Positions 7,797-14,156 of a stretch of DNA of 64,000 nucleotides are shown one piece after another. Position 1 is the first letter of the stretch, and the number at the start of each line of letters is the position of its first letter. Source of the stretch: Arthrobacter sp. SLBN-100 (GTDB taxonomy: Bacteria > Actinomycetota > Actinomycetes > Actinomycetales > Micrococcaceae); NCBI RefSeq assembly GCF_006715305.1, contig NZ_VFMY01000001.1:2976001-3040000 (forward strand), written 5' to 3'. The position numbers and the translations under genes are program-made. Below the pieces are notes generated by a model. It was not told the DNA's origin. It worked only from the letters and a program-made list of their open reading frames with translations, and made no database searches.

Positions 7797-8459
7797 CTAG
7801 GTGTTCTGGACGTGGTCTTTGGCATCGGTGGCGCGGCTCTTGACGTCGGTGACGGCGCCCTGGCCTTCGGCTTTGACGTTCTGGACACCCTCGGTGGCGG
7901 TGGCTTTGACGTTTTCCATCACTTCCTGGGCCGGTTCCTTGAGGTCCTGGACCATGTCCTTGGCGGCGTCGGCGACCTGCGTGGCCAGGGGCTGCGCGGC
8001 GGTCTTGAGCTGGTCCGCTGCCTCGCGTTCCTTCTGGCTTGGCGGGATCAGGGACGAGACGAGCATCCCGGCGCCGAACGCGATCAGGCCGGCGGCCAGG
8101 GGGTTGCCCTGTGCTTTGGCCTTGACCTGGTCCGGTGCCTGGGAAATCGCGGTCCCGGCATCACTGAGTTTGGCGCCGACGTTGTCCCTGGCGTCGTGCA
8201 GGGTGTCGGTGGTGTGGTGCATGGCGCCGCCGGCGTGGCCGGTGCCCGAGTGGACTTTATCCTGGACGGTACTCGTGGCTGAGTCTGCTGCTCCCATGAT
8301 CCTCTCCTTCACCCCGGTGACGGCGTCTTTCACTTTGTCGGTCTGGCGGTGGACGACATTGGAGGGGGTGACCTTGTCGGCGACCGCGTCCACGTCAGTG
8401 CCCAGGCGGGCACGGGTGGCTTCTATGTCTGCACGGATTGCGTCCGGGTTATCGCTCAT
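7797..8459 (-). CDS. DUF3618 domain protein, membrane-anchored stress protein
   Basis: A 220-residue protein. The first 40 residues (NPDAIRADIEATRARLGTDVDAVADKVTPSNVV) are the DUF3618 signature. Long amphipathic, Ala/Asp/Lys-rich LEA-like helices follow, then a single hydrophobic segment at about residues 119-135 (PLAAGLIAFGAGMLVSSLI), then more LEA-like repeats (KATATEGVQNVKAEGQGAVTDVKSRATDAKDH). Third gene of a coupled operon; its start overlaps the preceding stop by 4 bases. Likely an envelope stress protein (inference from operon and composition). Confidence 0.82.
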   Translation of the reverse strand: MSDNPDAIRADIEATRARLGTDVDAVADKVTPSNVVHRQTDKVKDAVTGVKERIMGAADSATSTVQDKVHSGTGHAGGAMHHTTDTLHDARDNVGAKLSDAGTAISQAPDQVKAKAQGNPLAAGLIAFGAGMLVSSLIPPSQKEREAADQLKTAAQPLATQVADAAKDMVQDLKEPAQEVMENVKATATEGVQNVKAEGQGAVTDVKSRATDAKDHVQNT

Positions 8460-8887
8460 CGGTTTACCTCACCTGGTTTTAGGGTTGGGGGAATTTCAGA
8501 AAGTGTTTCACCGGTCTGGGGCATGCCCTGGATCTGCTTGAGTTCCTTGCGCCCGATCGAGGCCAGGATTGCGGCGATGATGGCCCAGATCACGGCGACG
8601 ATCACGGCGGCCCAGCCCAGCGGCATCAGGGCGTCCAGGGCGAACATCAGGGCCAGGGACAGGAAGACCAGGACGAGGTGCCCGGCGACGCCGGCGCCGG
8701 CGAGCATTCCTCCGCCTTTGCCGGCCTTGGTGGCGGACTGTTTCAGTTCGGCCTTGGCCAGCTCCACTTCCTGGCGCATCAGGGTGGACAGGTCCCGGGT
8801 CACATCACCCAGGAGCTCACCCAGCGACGCGTTGTCCGCCTTCTGATGCGCCTCACTCGGCGGCATCTCCGGAATCTGGCTACTCAC
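8456..8887 (-). CDS. Holin-X-like (phage holin superfamily III) membrane protein
   Basis: A 143-residue protein of the actinobacterial holin-X family. It has a conserved N-terminal segment SLGELLGDVTRDLSTLMRQEVELAKAELKQSATKAGKG, then two hydrophobic segments at about 60-85 and 90-112. Despite the family name these are mostly chromosomal envelope proteins and not phage lysis genes. It overlaps both neighbours by 4 bases (ATGA junctions), so translation is coupled across the operon. No phage genes are nearby. Confidence 0.85.
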   Translation of the reverse strand: MSSQIPEMPPSEAHQKADNASLGELLGDVTRDLSTLMRQEVELAKAELKQSATKAGKGGGMLAGAGVAGHLVLVFLSLALMFALDALMPLGWAAVIVAVIWAIIAAILASIGRKELKQIQGMPQTGETLSEIPPTLKPGEVNR

Positions 8888-9759
8888 AGCTGGCGTCCTT
8901 CCGTTGACCGATAGGTGCCGTCGGCAGCACGATAGCTGCCGTCCTCGTCGCGGTAGGGGTCATCCTCGAACCGGAGCGGGCTGTCCTCGGCTGTGCCGGA
9001 GGGGAGCGTGGTGGTGGATACCGGCGCTCCGGTGCCGACCACCGGCTCGTCAAACAGATCGTCAGTGCCGGCTGCGTACACTGTCTCCTGCCGCAGCGGC
9101 GCCACCGGTGCGGACTGGACCGGCCGCCGGGCCGGGGACTGTACGGCGCCCTGGGAACCGGTGGCCCCTGCGGTGAGACCGCGGGTGAGGCGGCCCGCCA
9201 GTACACCTGCGCCTGCTGCGAGCAGGAGGAAGGTGCCGGGGCGGTTCCGGGCGAACCTCTGGACTTCGCCGAGCAGGTCGCCCGGCTGCCTGTTCTCCAG
9301 CCAGGAAGCCACCGATTCGCTGCGCTGGGCGGCCTGCCGGATCAGGTCGCTGGCCATGCCCTGCTGGTCCGGCGCGTCCGCCATGCTCTGCAGCTGGCTG
9401 GAAATGGTCCTGATGCCTTCGGCTGCCTTCTGCTGCTGGGTGCCGGCCTGGCTGGTCAGTCCCGACCTTGCCTGGGACAGCAGATCCTGGGCGCTGTGCT
9501 TGGCCTCCGAGGCCACGTGGGCCGCCTCTTCCTTCGCCGTGTGGGCTACCCCCTGGGCTGCCGTGGCCGCGTGCCCGGCCACATGCGAAGCCTCTTCCTT
9601 GGCCGCCCCGGCCTTGGAGGTGCCGGCCGTGCCGGCCGTGCCGGTCGTGCCGGTCGTGGATGCGGTGGTATAGGTATCTTCAACTCCCACCTCGGAGGCG
9701 CCGTAAGGGTCCGGGATAGCAGGGTTGGGTGTCTGGGGCCATTGGTTCTCTGTCATCAT
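8884..9759 (-). CDS. Ala/Gly-rich membrane-associated stress protein
   Basis: First gene of the coupled operon; 291 residues. The N-terminus is low in complexity (TASTTGTTGTAGTAGTSKAG), followed by two near-repeats of AHVA-type helices (EEASHVAGHAATAAQG, EEAAHVASEAKHSAQD), a central amphipathic helical part (SLENRQPGDLLGEVQRFARNRP), one membrane segment GTFLLLAAGAGVLAGRLTRG at about residues 173-192, and a polar tail with repeats of the type DPYRDEDGSYRAADGTYRSTEG. I do not recognise a named enzymatic domain. Its promoter region carries several palindromic MarR-type sites. Confidence 0.8.
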   Translation of the reverse strand: MMTENQWPQTPNPAIPDPYGASEVGVEDTYTTASTTGTTGTAGTAGTSKAGAAKEEASHVAGHAATAAQGVAHTAKEEAAHVASEAKHSAQDLLSQARSGLTSQAGTQQQKAAEGIRTISSQLQSMADAPDQQGMASDLIRQAAQRSESVASWLENRQPGDLLGEVQRFARNRPGTFLLLAAGAGVLAGRLTRGLTAGATGSQGAVQSPARRPVQSAPVAPLRQETVYAAGTDDLFDEPVVGTGAPVSTTTLPSGTAEDSPLRFEDDPYRDEDGSYRAADGTYRSTEGRQL

Positions 9760-9816
9760 GCTCTCTTTCGCAAAGGGTCAGCTGGCGATCAAGAACCAGC
9801 AGTGCTGGCGGTATTT

Positions 9817-9957
9817 AGTAAGCAGGGTTACTACTTAGATACTAAGCACACTTCTCATTTGGATTGCAAGGGGGCGTGTTGGAAGTCTTGGGTTTAAGCG
9901 GCAAGCGGCGGGACGGATAGTAAGCCTACTTGCGAACAGGATGCTAAGCATGCTTAT
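9817..9957. promoter_or_regulatory. Cluster of MarR-type operator sites in the divergent spacer
   Basis: The 269-base spacer between the membrane-stress operon and marR holds four related sites: AGTAA-N6-TTACT at 9817-9832, CTTAG-N3-CTAAG at 9834-9846, AGTAAGCCTACTTGC (imperfect palindrome) at 9919-9933, and the perfect TAAGCATGCTTA at 9945-9956. The last is identical to 4039-4050. The shared half-site is (A)GTAAGC or CTAAGC. Two sites lie nearer the minus-strand operon and two nearer marR, suggesting control of both promoters and autoregulation. Confidence 0.65.
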
Positions 9958-10028: not shown

Positions 10029-10562
10029 ATGACGAGCAACCTCGATCCGGATGCACGGAACAGCTACCGCCTTATTACGCTGGCGGCGCGCCTGGTCCAA
10101 CGGCGTCAGGATGATGCTTTGGCGCCCCTTGGCCTGACCCGGGCAGCTGTTATAGCCCTGGAAGGGCTGGCTGCCGGACCCCTTAACCAGGAGCAGCTTG
10201 CCGAAGTTGTCCGGGTGCAGAGCCAGACCCTGGGCAGGGTACTCACCCGGCTTGAGGGGTCAGGCCATATCAGCAGGACCCGCCAGTCCACCGACCGCAG
10301 GCAGTTTAGGGTCGAGCTCACCGATGTTGGCCGGGCAGCCCTCGAGGCGGCGCGGCAGGCGGAATTGGATGCTTATCCGGACGATCCGGAGATCTCCTGG
10401 AAGGTTCTGCAGGATGAACTCGCCAAGTTCATCCGGGCGCTGCCGCCCAGCCGGGATCCGGAAGTGGTTCCTTTTGTAGCCCCCGAACACCACCGCACCC
10501 CGCGCAGGTTGCCGGGGGCGCGTGGCCATGGCTTCCGGGGGCTGGACCATCCGCACCCGTAA
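10029..10562 (+). CDS. MarR family transcriptional regulator
   Basis: A 177-residue winged-helix regulator. The DNA-binding core spans about residues 38-100: LGLTRAAVIALEGLAAG, recognition-helix region EVVRVQSQTLGRVLTRLEGSGHISR, and a wing RTRQSTDRRQFRVELT. The last 35 residues (after RALPPSRDPE) are a polar extension beyond the usual MarR length. It is divergent from the stress operon with repeated palindromic sites between them, so it is the best candidate to bind the TAAGCATGCTTA motif seen at four promoters in this window. The ligand is unknown. Confidence 0.88.
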   Translation: MTSNLDPDARNSYRLITLAARLVQRRQDDALAPLGLTRAAVIALEGLAAGPLNQEQLAEVVRVQSQTLGRVLTRLEGSGHISRTRQSTDRRQFRVELTDVGRAALEAARQAELDAYPDDPEISWKVLQDELAKFIRALPPSRDPEVVPFVAPEHHRTPRRLPGARGHGFRGLDHPHP

Positions 10563-10676: not shown

Positions 10677-10991
10677 TCAGCTGTTGTCCTGGTCCTCGTT
10701 CGCCTGGGCCCCGGTGGTGTCGTTGTTGTCCAGCAGCCCACGCTGGGCCAGATCCGCCGCTTCTGACGCTTCGGCCGGCAGCGGATCCGTCGCCGGCGGA
10801 ACGTCACTGGGCGCATAGTCCGCAAGGCCTGCTGCAACCCGCTCCTGTTCGGCTGCTGCCGCGTAGGCGTCGTCGTCAATGTCCTCCGGCATTTTGCCGT
10901 GTCCTGTCCGCGTGGGATTCGGCAACGCATCCTCTTCGGGGATGATCACGCCGCCAGGGGCAAGGTCCTCGTTGTCATTTCCCGTTGCCAT
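10677..10991 (-). CDS. Small acidic hypothetical protein of the Balon-like operon
   Basis: A 104-residue, very acidic protein (MATGNDNEDLAPGGVIIPEEDA ..., ending TTGAQANEDQDNS). ATG 10991 is chosen because AGGAAGGA lies 5 bases upstream; the longer frame begins inside the spacer. The sequence looks disordered apart from DDDAYAAAAEQERVAAGLADYAP, which could be a helix. It is the last gene of a three-gene minus-strand operon, 43 bases after the release-factor-fold gene. Function unknown. Confidence 0.7.
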   Translation of the reverse strand: MATGNDNEDLAPGGVIIPEEDALPNPTRTGHGKMPEDIDDDAYAAAAEQERVAAGLADYAPSDVPPATDPLPAEASEAADLAQRGLLDNNDTTGAQANEDQDNS

Positions 10992-11034: not shown

Positions 11035-12171
11035 TTACGACGACGGAACCGCCGGCCCAGTGGACCATCGCAGCAGGGCTGCCACATCGGCCCCGTCTGC
11101 CAGGACCCCGCCCGGGACGAGCAGGACGCGCGCGTCGGTCAGCGCGGCCGCCCGCAGCAGTGCTGCCGGGGCCGGGACCTTGCCCAGCACCTTGGCCCCA
11201 AGGGACTCCTCCTCCGCGGTGGCAATCCACGGCTCGGCGTCAAGTGCCAGCAGCGTCCGCTCCGAGAGGGCGCCGTCATCCAGGATCAGCACCTCCACCT
11301 GGGCTTGCTGAAGCGCGTGGACCACAGCCCCGATGCCGGTGGCGGATTCAGGGTTGGCCTGGCCTTCCTGCATGGCCAGCCGGTCCATGATGTCCTGCTG
11401 CTCGGCAGCCCACTGTTCAGCGACCCGCTGGTTTACCTGGTCTTCAAGGAGGCCCTGGTCAGCGCCCGCTGTGTGCGTGTGGGAATCGACCATCGACACC
11501 AATGCCTGGGTGGCCTTGGAGAGTTGCTCCTGCACCAGCCTCCGTGCATGGATGTCACCGGCAAGGACTACCAGCCGTGCGCCGCTGTTGCCCACCACGC
11601 GGTCGATCTCCTCGGCCACCTGGTCCGCGTTGCGGCGCCACACATCCTCGGTGTGGTGCTGAAAGCGAAGGTGGGCCCAGCCCCCGCCCTGAAACTTCTT
11701 GATGTGCTGGTTGTCGCCCTGGACTTCCTCGGTGCTCGCCGGAGCGCCGGCTCCCGCGTAGTACAGCCGGATCTCGCCGTGTTCCCGGCTGACTTCCGCA
11801 ACGACGTAGGGGAACTCCTCCGGCCGGTGTTTTACCAGCGGCAGGAGGTCGGGAAGGGGATCCACCGAAATCCGTTCCGGCAGCACACGCTCGCCCGGCA
11901 GCACCTCGTTGATCTCAACGTTTCCCTGGTGGACCAGGACGAACCGGGACACGGGGGAAGGGATGCCTGCCTCAGGCCGCAGTGCCTGTTCCACCGCATC
12001 AAGGTCAGCCGCGGAGGCTCCCTGCGCTTCCAGCGCGGCGCGGACATTGCCGGGCCGCACGTCGCCCGCTTCCAGGCTGTCCACAGTGCCTGTCCCCGCG
12101 TCCACATAGGCGGTGCACCAGGGGCCCGGGAGCCGGTACCGGTCCGCGTGCTCCTTCAGGCTTGTGGTCAC
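11035..12171 (-). CDS. Rv2629/Vms1-type (baeRF2) archaeo-eukaryotic release-factor-fold protein, Balon-related ribosome hibernation candidate
   Basis: A 378-residue protein close in length to M. tuberculosis Rv2629. It has the layout of the bacterial eRF1-like family 2: an N-terminal alpha/beta domain (WCTAYVDAGTGTVDSLEAG, SRFVLVHQGNVEINEVLPGERVLPERISVDPLPDLLPLV), a central part with the loop KKFQGGGWAHLRFQHHTEDVWRRNADQVAEEIDRVV, and a C-terminal L7Ae-like segment (QAQVEVLILDDGALSERTLLA ... ALLRAAALTDARVLLVPGGVLADGADVAALLRW). The canonical GGQ is not present. From memory, this family includes proteins shown to occupy the A-site of idle mycobacterial and Psychrobacter ribosomes. It overlaps the upstream small gene by 4 bases. 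Confidence 0.8.
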   Translation of the reverse strand: MTTSLKEHADRYRLPGPWCTAYVDAGTGTVDSLEAGDVRPGNVRAALEAQGASAADLDAVEQALRPEAGIPSPVSRFVLVHQGNVEINEVLPGERVLPERISVDPLPDLLPLVKHRPEEFPYVVAEVSREHGEIRLYYAGAGAPASTEEVQGDNQHIKKFQGGGWAHLRFQHHTEDVWRRNADQVAEEIDRVVGNSGARLVVLAGDIHARRLVQEQLSKATQALVSMVDSHTHTAGADQGLLEDQVNQRVAEQWAAEQQDIMDRLAMQEGQANPESATGIGAVVHALQQAQVEVLILDDGALSERTLLALDAEPWIATAEEESLGAKVLGKVPAPAALLRAAALTDARVLLVPGGVLADGADVAALLRWSTGPAVPSS

Positions 12172-12383
12172 TGTTCCTCCTCCTCGTCGCTGATGGCATC
12201 GGGGGAAGCGACCGGATTCAGGGCTTCCTGGACTTCAGCAGGATCCGTGTCGTCGGGGAAGGGTTCGGTCTCGCGCCATTCCTCCGCGTGGGGCGGTTGG
12301 TTTGCGTGGACCGCACCCTGGGTTTCGTGCTTCATCTGGTCATCCAGATTGGAGCCGTGTTTGGTGTTGCCGCGTTCAGCCAT
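12168..12383 (-). CDS. Small acidic conserved protein heading the stress operon
   Basis: A 71-residue protein starting MAERGNTKHGSNLDDQMKHET and ending DAISDEEEEQ. The opening resembles a family of small actinobacterial proteins that often precede a DUF2795-like domain, but that domain is absent here, so this may be a short version. The start has AAGGAGAT just upstream. Its stop overlaps the start of the release-factor-fold gene (ATGA), which implies translational coupling. It is probably disordered; no enzymatic role is visible. Confidence 0.75.
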   Translation of the reverse strand: MAERGNTKHGSNLDDQMKHETQGAVHANQPPHAEEWRETEPFPDDTDPAEVQEALNPVASPDAISDEEEEQ

Positions 12384-12403: not shown

Positions 12404-12424
12404 GAATTTAGTATCACAGGCTTA
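12404..12424. promoter_or_regulatory. MarR-type site within the promoter of the Balon-like operon
   Basis: Read on the minus strand, AGTAAGCCTGTGATACT starts with the same AGTAAGC half-site as the marR spacer (AGTAAGCCTACTT at 9919). TGTGATACT looks like an extended -10 element, about 40 bases before the operon start. A bound regulator would cover the -10/-35 interval. Confidence 0.5.
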
Positions 12425-12490
12425 CTAGTTCGTCATTTCACCGTAGCACCAGGACGCGGCCGTCAAAAGGGGCAGTGCTGGGGATCTCGC

Positions 12491-12826
12491 TCAGGCTGCG
12501 CAGGCATCCTTCAGGGCCTGGACAGACTCGGACGGCACCTGGTCTCCGGCCTCCGCAATTTCACCCAACGGCGTCGTAATTTCAGTGGGGACGCCCGCGG
12601 TGCGGGCGGCCGACACGAGCCCGCCGAGGGCCCGTTTGTCCTCCACGCTGACCAGTCCATCCTGGACCACGGCGCAAATCTGCCGGTTCACTTCCTCCGC
12701 GGCTGCCGTGGCCACCTTCGAAGCGGCGTCACTGGCCGCATTCCCGGCGGCTTCCTCGACGGCCCCGCAGCCGGCCAGCAGCAGCATCAGGGGGACGGCG
12801 GACAGGGCGGCAAGGCGGCGGTTCAT
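12491..12826 (-). CDS. Putative lipoprotein of unknown function
   Basis: A 111-residue protein with a lipoprotein signal: MNRRLAALSAVPLMLLLAGCG, lipobox LAGC with Cys at residue 20. The mature part is a small helical domain containing VEDKRALGGLVSAARTAGVPTEITTPLGEIAEAG and one further Cys pair candidate (Cys51 and the C-terminal Cys109). No family recognised. It stands alone, 34 bases downstream of the alditol oxidase gene on the same strand, so co-transcription is possible. Confidence 0.8.
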   Translation of the reverse strand: MNRRLAALSAVPLMLLLAGCGAVEEAAGNAASDAASKVATAAAEEVNRQICAVVQDGLVSVEDKRALGGLVSAARTAGVPTEITTPLGEIAEAGDQVPSESVQALKDACAA

Positions 12827-12860: not shown

Positions 12861-14156
12861 TTAGCGGGCGCTCGCCGCCGGGACGCCGAGGATGGTGTCC
12901 AGGAGCCCGTTGCGGAACTTGCCCTCGGGGTCGTGGGAAGAGGCAAGGGACCGGAATCCGGCGAAGCGAGGGTACAGGGTCTCCCAATCGTGGCCGGCCG
13001 GGGAGAAGAGCTTGCCCCAGTGCGGCCGGGCACCGAAGGGCCGGAGCAGGTCCTCGAGTTCCGGGAGGAGTGCTTCCACCTCGGGCTGAAGCGGCTTCCA
13101 GGTGAAATGCAGCGCCACGCTCTGCTGCCGGTAGAAGGGGCTCAGCCAGAATTCGTCCGCGGCACCCGTACGGATTTCCGAGACAAACAGCAGGGGCGCC
13201 AGCCTGTCCGCCAGACCGCGGACTGCCTGAAGCGCCGCCGGCGCGTGCCCCAGCGGCAGGATGAACTCGCTCTGGAGCTCCTCGCCCTTGCTGGGAGTGA
13301 ACTCGTGCCGGAAATGCGCCAGCCGGTCCAGCCATTGCCCCGGCTCGTCCAGCTGGAGGGTGCAGTTCTCCGCCGACATGTCCGGCAGCGGGTGACGGGC
13401 GCGCGTGGCTGCCGTGGCGCCGAAGAGATTCGCCAGCGGAGGCTCCGTGTCCAGTGCCTTTAGCCATACCTGGCTGATCGTTTCGCCTGCATAGTCCGTG
13501 AACAGACTCACGCTGTAGGCGCTGGACATGATCTCCGGGAAGGCTGCCAGCGCCCGGTCCCACGGCAGGTTCTCCAGGACGCGCTGGCGCATCTGGAAAC
13601 TGGGCTGGACGGTCAGTTCGAGTCCGGTCACAATGCCCAAAGCGCCCAGGCCCACCACGCTGGCCAGGAACTCGTCCCCGTCCGCCCGGGTAAGGGTGAC
13701 CAGTTCGCCTGAGGGCCGGACCAGGTCGATGGACTCGACGGCGCCGGCGAGCGAGGGGTTGTTCACCCCGGAACCGTGGGTTCCCGTTTGTACTGCCCCT
13801 GCCACCGAGATGTGGGGCAGTGACGCCAGGTTGTGGATGGCCATGCCGGATTGCTCCAGCCTGCGGCACAAGGCCCCGTAGCTGACGCCCCCGCTGACCT
13901 TGACAGTGCTGCGTTCCGGGTCAACGACGATCTGCTGCGGCAGGGCATCGAGCAGCACATGCACCCCGTCGGTGTCCCCAACACGGTTGAAGGAGTGCCG
14001 GGATCCAAGGGCCTTCACCAGGGCTGCCCGCTCCACGATCCGCGACAGTTCCGCCACCGATTCAGGCCGCTCGATGAGGTTGGACGAGTATTCGAGGTTT
14101 CCTGCCCAGTTCTTCAATGAATCAGCTTTCCGGTGGGGGTGGGGTGGCTCACTCAA
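12861..14156 (-). CDS. aldO: Alditol (xylitol/sorbitol) oxidase, covalent FAD
   Basis: Oxidises the primary alcohol of alditols such as xylitol or sorbitol to the aldose with production of hydrogen peroxide. At 431 residues it corresponds to Streptomyces AldO (about 418). The VAO-type FAD domain is clear: the covalent-flavin histidine in LGSRHSFN (His54), ASLPHISVAGAVQTGTHGSG, and GLGALGIVTGLELTVQP. Substrate domain signatures AYSVSLFTDY, EFTPSKGEELQSEFILP, SEIRTGAADEFWLSP and FGARPHWGKLF align with AldO from memory. The first start is a TTG at 14156; a TTG 13 codons later, just before KNWAGN, fits the AldO N-terminus equally well. No signal peptide. Confidence 0.9.
   Translation of the reverse strand: MSEPPHPHRKADSLKNWAGNLEYSSNLIERPESVAELSRIVERAALVKALGSRHSFNRVGDTDGVHVLLDALPQQIVVDPERSTVKVSGGVSYGALCRRLEQSGMAIHNLASLPHISVAGAVQTGTHGSGVNNPSLAGAVESIDLVRPSGELVTLTRADGDEFLASVVGLGALGIVTGLELTVQPSFQMRQRVLENLPWDRALAAFPEIMSSAYSVSLFTDYAGETISQVWLKALDTEPPLANLFGATAATRARHPLPDMSAENCTLQLDEPGQWLDRLAHFRHEFTPSKGEELQSEFILPLGHAPAALQAVRGLADRLAPLLFVSEIRTGAADEFWLSPFYRQQSVALHFTWKPLQPEVEALLPELEDLLRPFGARPHWGKLFSPAGHDWETLYPRFAGFRSLASSHDPEGKFRNGLLDTILGVPAASAR

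Follow-up and report, generated by a model that had tools for sequence, protein, structure and literature searches.

Few factors of the Balon type have been studied. Those relatives whose structures have been solved occupy the A site of the ribosome, and two of them, the mycobacterial proteins Msmeg1130 and Rv2629, reduce in vitro translation about 15-fold; the mycobacterial copies adjoin genes for hypoxia response and multidrug export (according to sections of PMC10901736). Among the traits of such factors are an HP motif, a bL27 trap, and a beta loop that binds EF-Tu. The neighbours listed in parts of Helena-Bueno et al. are genes such as RaiA, Hsp20, RtcB, and HdeD. In the present work, we analysed a stretch of 64,000 nucleotides (nt) of the soil bacterium Arthrobacter sp. 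SLBN-100, hereafter the window, in which a gene coding for a release-factor-fold protein of this kind (the factor) is placed on the minus strand, flanked on either side by the genes of two small proteins, S71 and S104, on the same strand (Table 1). Both small proteins are acidic (isoelectric points, pI, of 4.17 and 4.05), as reported in the preliminary description of the locus. We regard it as probable that the locus serves ribosome hibernation as a stress operon in which S71, which is linked to the factor and has a core better conserved than the factor itself, acts as an accessory protein.

Fold and family of the factor

The preliminary description had assigned to the factor a release-factor fold and an Rv2629/baeRF2 layout, proposing a structural comparison with Balon. 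When the predicted model was searched with Foldseek, the six best entries were those of Rv2629, Msmeg1130, and Balon, that is, the eRF1-like, three-domain fold of the hibernation factors. At the sequence level, the factor matches the whole Pfam profile PF18844 (baeRF_family2) over residues 121-271 with 146 bits (cut-off 26.9), and the Rv2629 family (NF052289) is by far its best NCBIfam model, Rv2629 being its best match in both sequence and structure. The score on the latter model, 199.9 bits over residues 15-369, lies below the equivalog cut-off of 320, and none of nine other factor relatives exceeds it (72-279 bits); hence, the baeRF2 half of the assignment stands, whereas the factor is not a certified member of the Rv2629 family.

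Some factor genes (L094, L098, L103, L111, G351, and G482) are cut or gave matches broken into two or three pieces; the factor may be decaying in some strains, or the sequences may contain errors. One of these (L098) lies on a contig titled Vibrio cholerae strain 35D and is of the actinobacterial baeRF2 type; it is most likely a contamination of that assembly.

The loop in place of GGQ

The GGQ motif of eRF1 sits at the start of the long helix of the middle domain. At the start of helix 165-196 of the factor (DSSP), matched by eye to the eRF1 GGQ loop, we found the loop GGGWAHLRFQ; neither the string GGQ, whose lack had been noticed before, nor NIKS is present in the factor sequence. The motif GGxSQ, which acVLRF1 carries (a section of PMC6514570), is replaced by GGWAH in the window factor. 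In an alignment of 236 distinct rows, six of which have no letter there, the tryptophan of the loop is kept in 209, and the position two residues after it, aligned with the glutamine of GGxSQ, is a histidine in 113 rows, a glutamine in 79, and a glutamate in 31. Since this position varies among H, Q, and E, it is unlikely to be an essential catalytic residue, and we read the factor family as probably non-catalytic.

A different function would follow if the factor were a peptidyl-tRNA hydrolase of the VLRF1/Vms1 type that rescues stalled ribosomes, and no hibernation factor. Several relatives are indeed titled "Vms1/Ankzf1 family peptidyl-tRNA hydrolase" by their source; the factor passes the Pfam cut-offs of both acVLRF1 (PF18859, 41.9 bits vs 27.1) and baeRF10 (PF18854, 56.8 bits vs 27.1), and about a third of the relatives (79/236) keep the glutamine at the acVLRF1-like position. 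These points, together with the score on NF052289, speak against a role in hibernation. However, the window factor has a histidine at that position and its family shows H, Q, or E, the best structural matches are hibernation factors, and Rv2629 is by far the best NCBIfam model. The stricter NCBIfam acVLRF1 model gave no match to the factor at E values up to 1. We consider a hydrolase quite improbable, and a hibernation factor remains our preferred reading.

Linkage of S71 to the factor

The distribution of the genes was checked in samples of genomes at the level of genus, order, and phylum, with inter-gene distances taken from the positions in the match tables. In the genus sample (198 genomes), S71 is present in 38 genomes and the factor in 48, with 36 harboring both; the count of the factor includes two genomes with broken copies (G351 and G482) and omits five weak matches (G342, G396, G409, G422, and G479; E 3.6e-5 to 8.3e-5), with which it would rise to 53/198. 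In 35 of the 36 genomes with both genes, S71 is located directly upstream of the factor, on the same strand and at less than 200 bases. These data bear out the previously suggested link of the factor with its small neighbours, as far as co-occurrence in the genus is concerned.

The same arrangement, S71 upstream of the factor on the same strand, was retrieved in 36 of 70 named loci, including four from Microbacterium metagenome-assembled genomes (MAGs). In 24 of these 36, S71 overlaps the start of the factor match by 1-8 bases, ten show gaps of 2-37 bases, and two lie at 131 and 207 bases from the match; in the window, the two genes share the 4-nt overlap GTGA at 12168-12171. In the order sample (297 genomes), a strong S71 match was found in four genomes and the factor in 102; all four genomes with S71 harbor the factor, two of them with the genes adjacent and the other two with distances of about 40 and 53 kb. 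The pair also occurs in G073, which belongs to another family.

On the opposite side stand the two genus genomes with S71 and without the factor (G016 and G385), the 12 of the 48 factor-bearing genus genomes and the 34 of the 70 named loci without S71, and the fact that the co-occurrence counts were made without correction for phylogeny. In G016, S71 follows an Hsp20 gene; in G134, it is placed beside a ChaB gene.

Conservation of the S71 core

The conserved core of S71 can be written as RGNTxHG..LDD.MKHE..G.........AEE.RETEP.PDDTD. Its predicted model contains only two helices (residues 11-27 and 49-54) and no confident fold, with a mean predicted local distance difference test score (pLDDT) of 64.2 and a predicted template modeling score (pTM) of 0.28. 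Pfam and NCBIfam searches gave no match for either S71 or S104, and the Pfam search of relatives retrieved nothing beyond two weak matches under the cut-off.

The comparison of the four Microbacterium MAG loci with the 32 others revealed a mean identity of 61% for the S71 core versus 35% for the factor; the S71 core is, on these sequences, better conserved between families than the factor. The divergences of the two genes are correlated (Mantel r 0.62, with 0 of 10000 permutations as high). Since S71 is conserved above its partner, its target would be something more constant than the factor, in our reading the ribosome or EF-Tu, and S71 may be regarded as a candidate helper in ribosome hibernation.

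Loss of S71 and the leader frame

The two small proteins had been proposed as cofactors of the factor. The S71 core is deleted, however, in a sublineage that keeps the factor: among the eight loci L006-L013, seven have lost it and still bear the factor, a finding that counts against our preferred reading. Three of them (L006, L009, and L011) retain the first ~10 codons of S71 fused in frame to the factor, and four (L007, L010, L012, and L013) are left with a mini-frame, 18 or 19 codons long, that ends with its stop overlapping the factor's start codon; the ribosome-binding site and the start of S71 are retained in all seven. Two further loci without S71 (L126 and L169) resemble the mini-frame type, and in L094 the start codon of S71 is itself altered. 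Because the core was lost while the factor was kept, the factor does not depend on the S71 protein in these strains. According to these data, S71 is accessory and not essential, and the idea of a strict cofactor has to be abandoned for it.

Since the start and the ribosome-binding site persist in loci devoid of the core, part of the S71 frame seems to serve the translation of the factor. This raises the possibility that S71 is a mere leader open reading frame (ORF), which provides the factor with a start and a ribosome-binding site and whose protein has no function. In line with this, the stretch GAGGAGGAGGAACAG, the final codons of S71 that encode its acidic end, resembles the ribosome-binding site of the factor, and the seven fused or mini-frame loci, with L126 and L169 alike, keep the start without the core. 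A functionless protein is difficult to reconcile, however, with a core that is more conserved between families than the factor, that occurs apart from it beside Hsp20 (G016) and ChaB (G134), and that also forms the leader of some proteins with a DUF2795 domain; we therefore consider this explanation unlikely, and an accessory protein remains our preferred reading of S71.

S104 and the three-gene order

Strong matches to S104 were found in 32 of the 198 genus genomes, all of them factor-bearing (33 if a weak match is included, that of G010, which has no factor match; E 1.5e-6). The gene is located directly downstream of the factor in 28 of them, on the same strand in 25 and on the opposite strand in 3, and elsewhere in the other 4. 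Its absence from 16 of the 48 factor-bearing genomes and its position elsewhere in 4/32 are at odds with a strict cofactor. Among the best 120 of 317 S104 relatives, those named by organism belong to Arthrobacter, Pseudarthrobacter, Paenarthrobacter, or Specibacter, the exception being a single MAG, labelled simply as an actinomycete. The three-gene order is not kept across the Micrococcaceae: S71 and S104 are absent or displaced in relatives, and the three genes do not form a fixed unit.

DUF2795 proteins with an S71-like leader

In the order sample, the only further matches to the S71 profile at E <1e-5 are the leaders of three proteins whose DUF2795 domain was confirmed by Pfam. Altogether, six such leaders score 22.8-45.1 bits with the S71 profile, whereas the top scores reached when each leader was shuffled 500 times are 7.6-14.5 bits (3000 shuffles, maximum 14.5). 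Pfam did not detect the domain (PF11387) in S71. At the DUF2795 locus of the window's own genome, no S71-like leader was seen, and the protein encoded there has no useful match in the PDB (best E 0.055).

The DUF2795 and baeRF2 genes are also found close to each other more often than expected under random placement, an expectation in which relatedness and broken contigs are uncorrected: within 5 kb in 4 of the 17 genomes with both in the phylum sample (149 genomes; 0.07 expected, p about 1e-6), and within 5 kb in 2 of 25 (0.08 expected, simulated p 0.003) and within 25 kb in 6 of 25 (0.40 expected, p 3e-6) in the order sample. In most genomes with both they do not lie within 5 kb of each other (13/17 and 23/25, respectively). 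Of the six close pairs, no more than three (G513, G525, and G611) show the S71-like leader, which counts against our preferred reading; it was not found in the fetched stretch of the other three (G601, G205, and G326); in G525 and G601, the DUF2795 gene is divergent from that of the factor.

In G513 (L237), genes that by eye are ChaB-like, DUF2795 with the S71-like leader, archease-like, RtcB-like, phosphoribosyltransferase-like, and baeRF2 form one run on a single strand, a set that, as named by eye, would unite RNA repair and ribosome protection. In G611 (L240), DUF2795, CBS-like, DJ-1-like, and baeRF2 genes (also named by eye) stand in a row that recalls the hypoxia gene set near the mycobacterial copies; a section of PMC13324472 describes CBS proteins as hibernation factors in Archaea. 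Within the literature searched, DUF2795 is mentioned only in passing, and neither by Helena-Bueno et al. nor by Burroughs and Aravind.

It is conceivable that the S71 core and the leader of some DUF2795 proteins are one short peptide that docks onto some nearly invariant component of the translation machinery. This peptide would recur in Actinobacteria as a small accessory to hibernation of the Balon type, either free (S71) or joined to DUF2795. We consider this decidedly doubtful, since the leader is seen in just three of the close pairs.

The neighbourhoods described so far could also be explained by one stress regulon, comprising S71, S104, DUF2795, and the factor, whose genes are clustered in the genome and whose products do not interact. 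The neighbours of S71 or DUF2795 do include Hsp20 and ChaB and, by eye, RtcB-, archease-, and CBS-like genes; S104 and S71 can be far from the factor in genomes that bear it, and DUF2795 is within 25 kb of the factor and not adjacent to it in several genomes. Yet, the direct upstream position of S71 in 35/36 genus genomes and its overlap with the factor in 24/36 named loci are tighter than a regulon requires, so that we regard this explanation as possible and somewhat unlikely. Mere shared ancestry, with some clades of the genus holding the whole block and the rest having lost it, appears rather unlikely to us: it agrees with the co-occurrence counts of S71 and S104, drawn from one genus and without a genome tree, and with the flanking ALO and lipoprotein genes common to 14/70 named loci, but not with the occurrence of the S71-factor pair in Microbacterium MAGs and, in G073, in another family, the persistence of S104 in factor-bearing genomes even when unlinked (4/32), or the phylum sample, where DUF2795 proximity recurs in as many as four families. 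A stress operon with S71 as accessory thus remains the reading that we prefer.

Gene organization and promoter element

The features of the locus are listed in Table 1. The preliminary description had delimited the operon as 11035..12383, an interval that covers S71 and the factor and leaves S104 outside, and had considered it coupled; strict coupling is limited to S71 and the factor, which overlap, since 43 nt separate the stop of the factor from the start of S104. The MarR gene is convergent with the operon. The two genes upstream of the operon, coding for the lipoprotein-like protein and the FAD-linked oxidoreductase, accompany the factor in 14 of the 70 named loci.

Table 1. Features of the S71-factor locus (positions refer to the window).
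Feature	Position	Strand	Basis or remarks
S71, 71-residue acidic protein	12168..12383	-	ORF; no Pfam/NCBIfam match
baeRF2/Rv2629-like release-factor-fold protein (factor), 378 residues	11035..12171	-	GTG start overlaps the S71 stop
Loop GGGWAHLRFQ in place of GGQ, factor residues 162-171	11659..11688	-	Sequence and DSSP; equivalence with eRF1 by eye
S104, 104-residue acidic protein	10677..10991	-	43 nt 3' of the factor gene; relatives; co-occurrence
Candidate operator, inverted repeat TAGTA-N9-TACTA	12408..12427	-	TAGTAAGC at 12427-12420, GATACTAA at 12415-12408
Possible promoter TTGACG ... TACGGT, spacer 15 (short)	12440..12466	-	By eye
MarR-family regulator, candidate regulator of the operon	10029..10562	+	PF01047 39.6 bits, PF12802 36 bits, both above cut-off
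Copies of the operator words 5' of the MarR gene	9816..9925	+	TAGTAAGC at 9816-9823 and 9918-9925; GATACTAA at 9838-9845
Small lipoprotein-like gene, upstream of the operon	12491-12826	-	By eye
FAD-linked oxidoreductase gene, upstream of the operon	12861-14156		

The word TAGTAAGC occurs three times in the 64 kb (0.17 expected), once at the operon and twice upstream of the MarR gene, and GATACTAA twice (0.11 expected), once at each of the two places; the region upstream of the MarR gene is conserved too. The simplest reading of this shared palindromic motif is that it is a MarR operator, as had been proposed. Nine near loci in which S71 is kept have the block containing both words exactly as in the window. 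The block is altered in four aligned near loci without S71 (L051, L056, L091, and L094) and is intact in L169, though this locus lacks S71. Neither word is present in the 250 bases before S71 in the remaining 27 of the 36 named S71 loci, which argues against a regulation common to all of them; the proposed site therefore holds for 9/36 loci and would be a trait of the near relatives of the window, not of the family. A scan with the sigma-70 consensus found no promoter upstream of the operon.

Three genes divergent from the MarR gene (7797-9759, minus strand) code for a DUF3618 protein, an Actinobacterial Holin-X protein, and a 291-residue protein without a Pfam match; since the intergenic region holds TAGTAAGC, they may share the MarR regulator.

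Proposed role of the locus

Since the fold is shared with the solved relatives, the same role in the A site may be ascribed to the window factor. Most likely, it would move into the A site of 70S ribosomes that are idle or stalled, reading no mRNA and leaving peptidyl-tRNA unhydrolyzed; it would block translation and shield the ribosome until growth resumes. S71 would be translated from the same message, just before the factor. Because S71 has no confident fold and its core is better conserved than the factor, we infer that it binds something nearly invariant, such as the ribosome, EF-Tu, or L7/L12, and it might tune the loading or the release of the factor, as an accessory rather than a required subunit. 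S104 would be a lineage-specific acidic extra. The promoter palindrome is probably the site through which, in this genome and those close to it, the MarR protein keeps the operon repressed. S71 represents a directly testable candidate for controlling the loading or release of Balon-type factors and, through its kinship with their leaders, offers an initial clue to the role of DUF2795 proteins.

The literature searched gave no description of the linkage of S71 with the factor or of its kinship with the DUF2795 leaders, and the genes of S71, the factor, and S104 do not appear in the passages of PMC13118837, a paper retrieved for ribosome hibernation and Arthrobacter. The earlier view that the partners were not described holds for S71 only in part, its core being the leader of some known but uncharacterised DUF2795 proteins.

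Comparison with known systems

The closest systems are Rv2629 and Msmeg1130 (8v9k, 8v9j, and 8v9l), with which the factor shares the three-domain fold over 333-356 aligned residues and, likewise, the lack of GGQ and NIKS. It differs from them in sequence, with an identity in the structural alignments of 23% (Rv2629) and 18% (Msmeg1130), and in its neighbours, which are here S71, S104, and MarR. Balon of Psychrobacter (8rd8, 8rdv, and 8rdw) is more distant: its identity with the factor is 12%, and the factor reaches 20.3 bits, against a cut-off of 330, on the NCBIfam family AOC03_06830, which we take to be Balon itself. The likeness to acVLRF1 and baeRF10 concerns the middle domain, which passes both Pfam cut-offs, whereas the loop GGWAH sets the factor apart from the GGxSQ of acVLRF1. 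Finally, some DUF2795 proteins have an N-terminal leader that matches the core of S71, while S71 lacks the domain and other members, including that of this genome, lack the leader. The factor is a further member of an already known kind; as far as the literature searched is concerned, the novelty of the locus lies in the linked, better-conserved S71 and in its kinship with the leaders of DUF2795 proteins.
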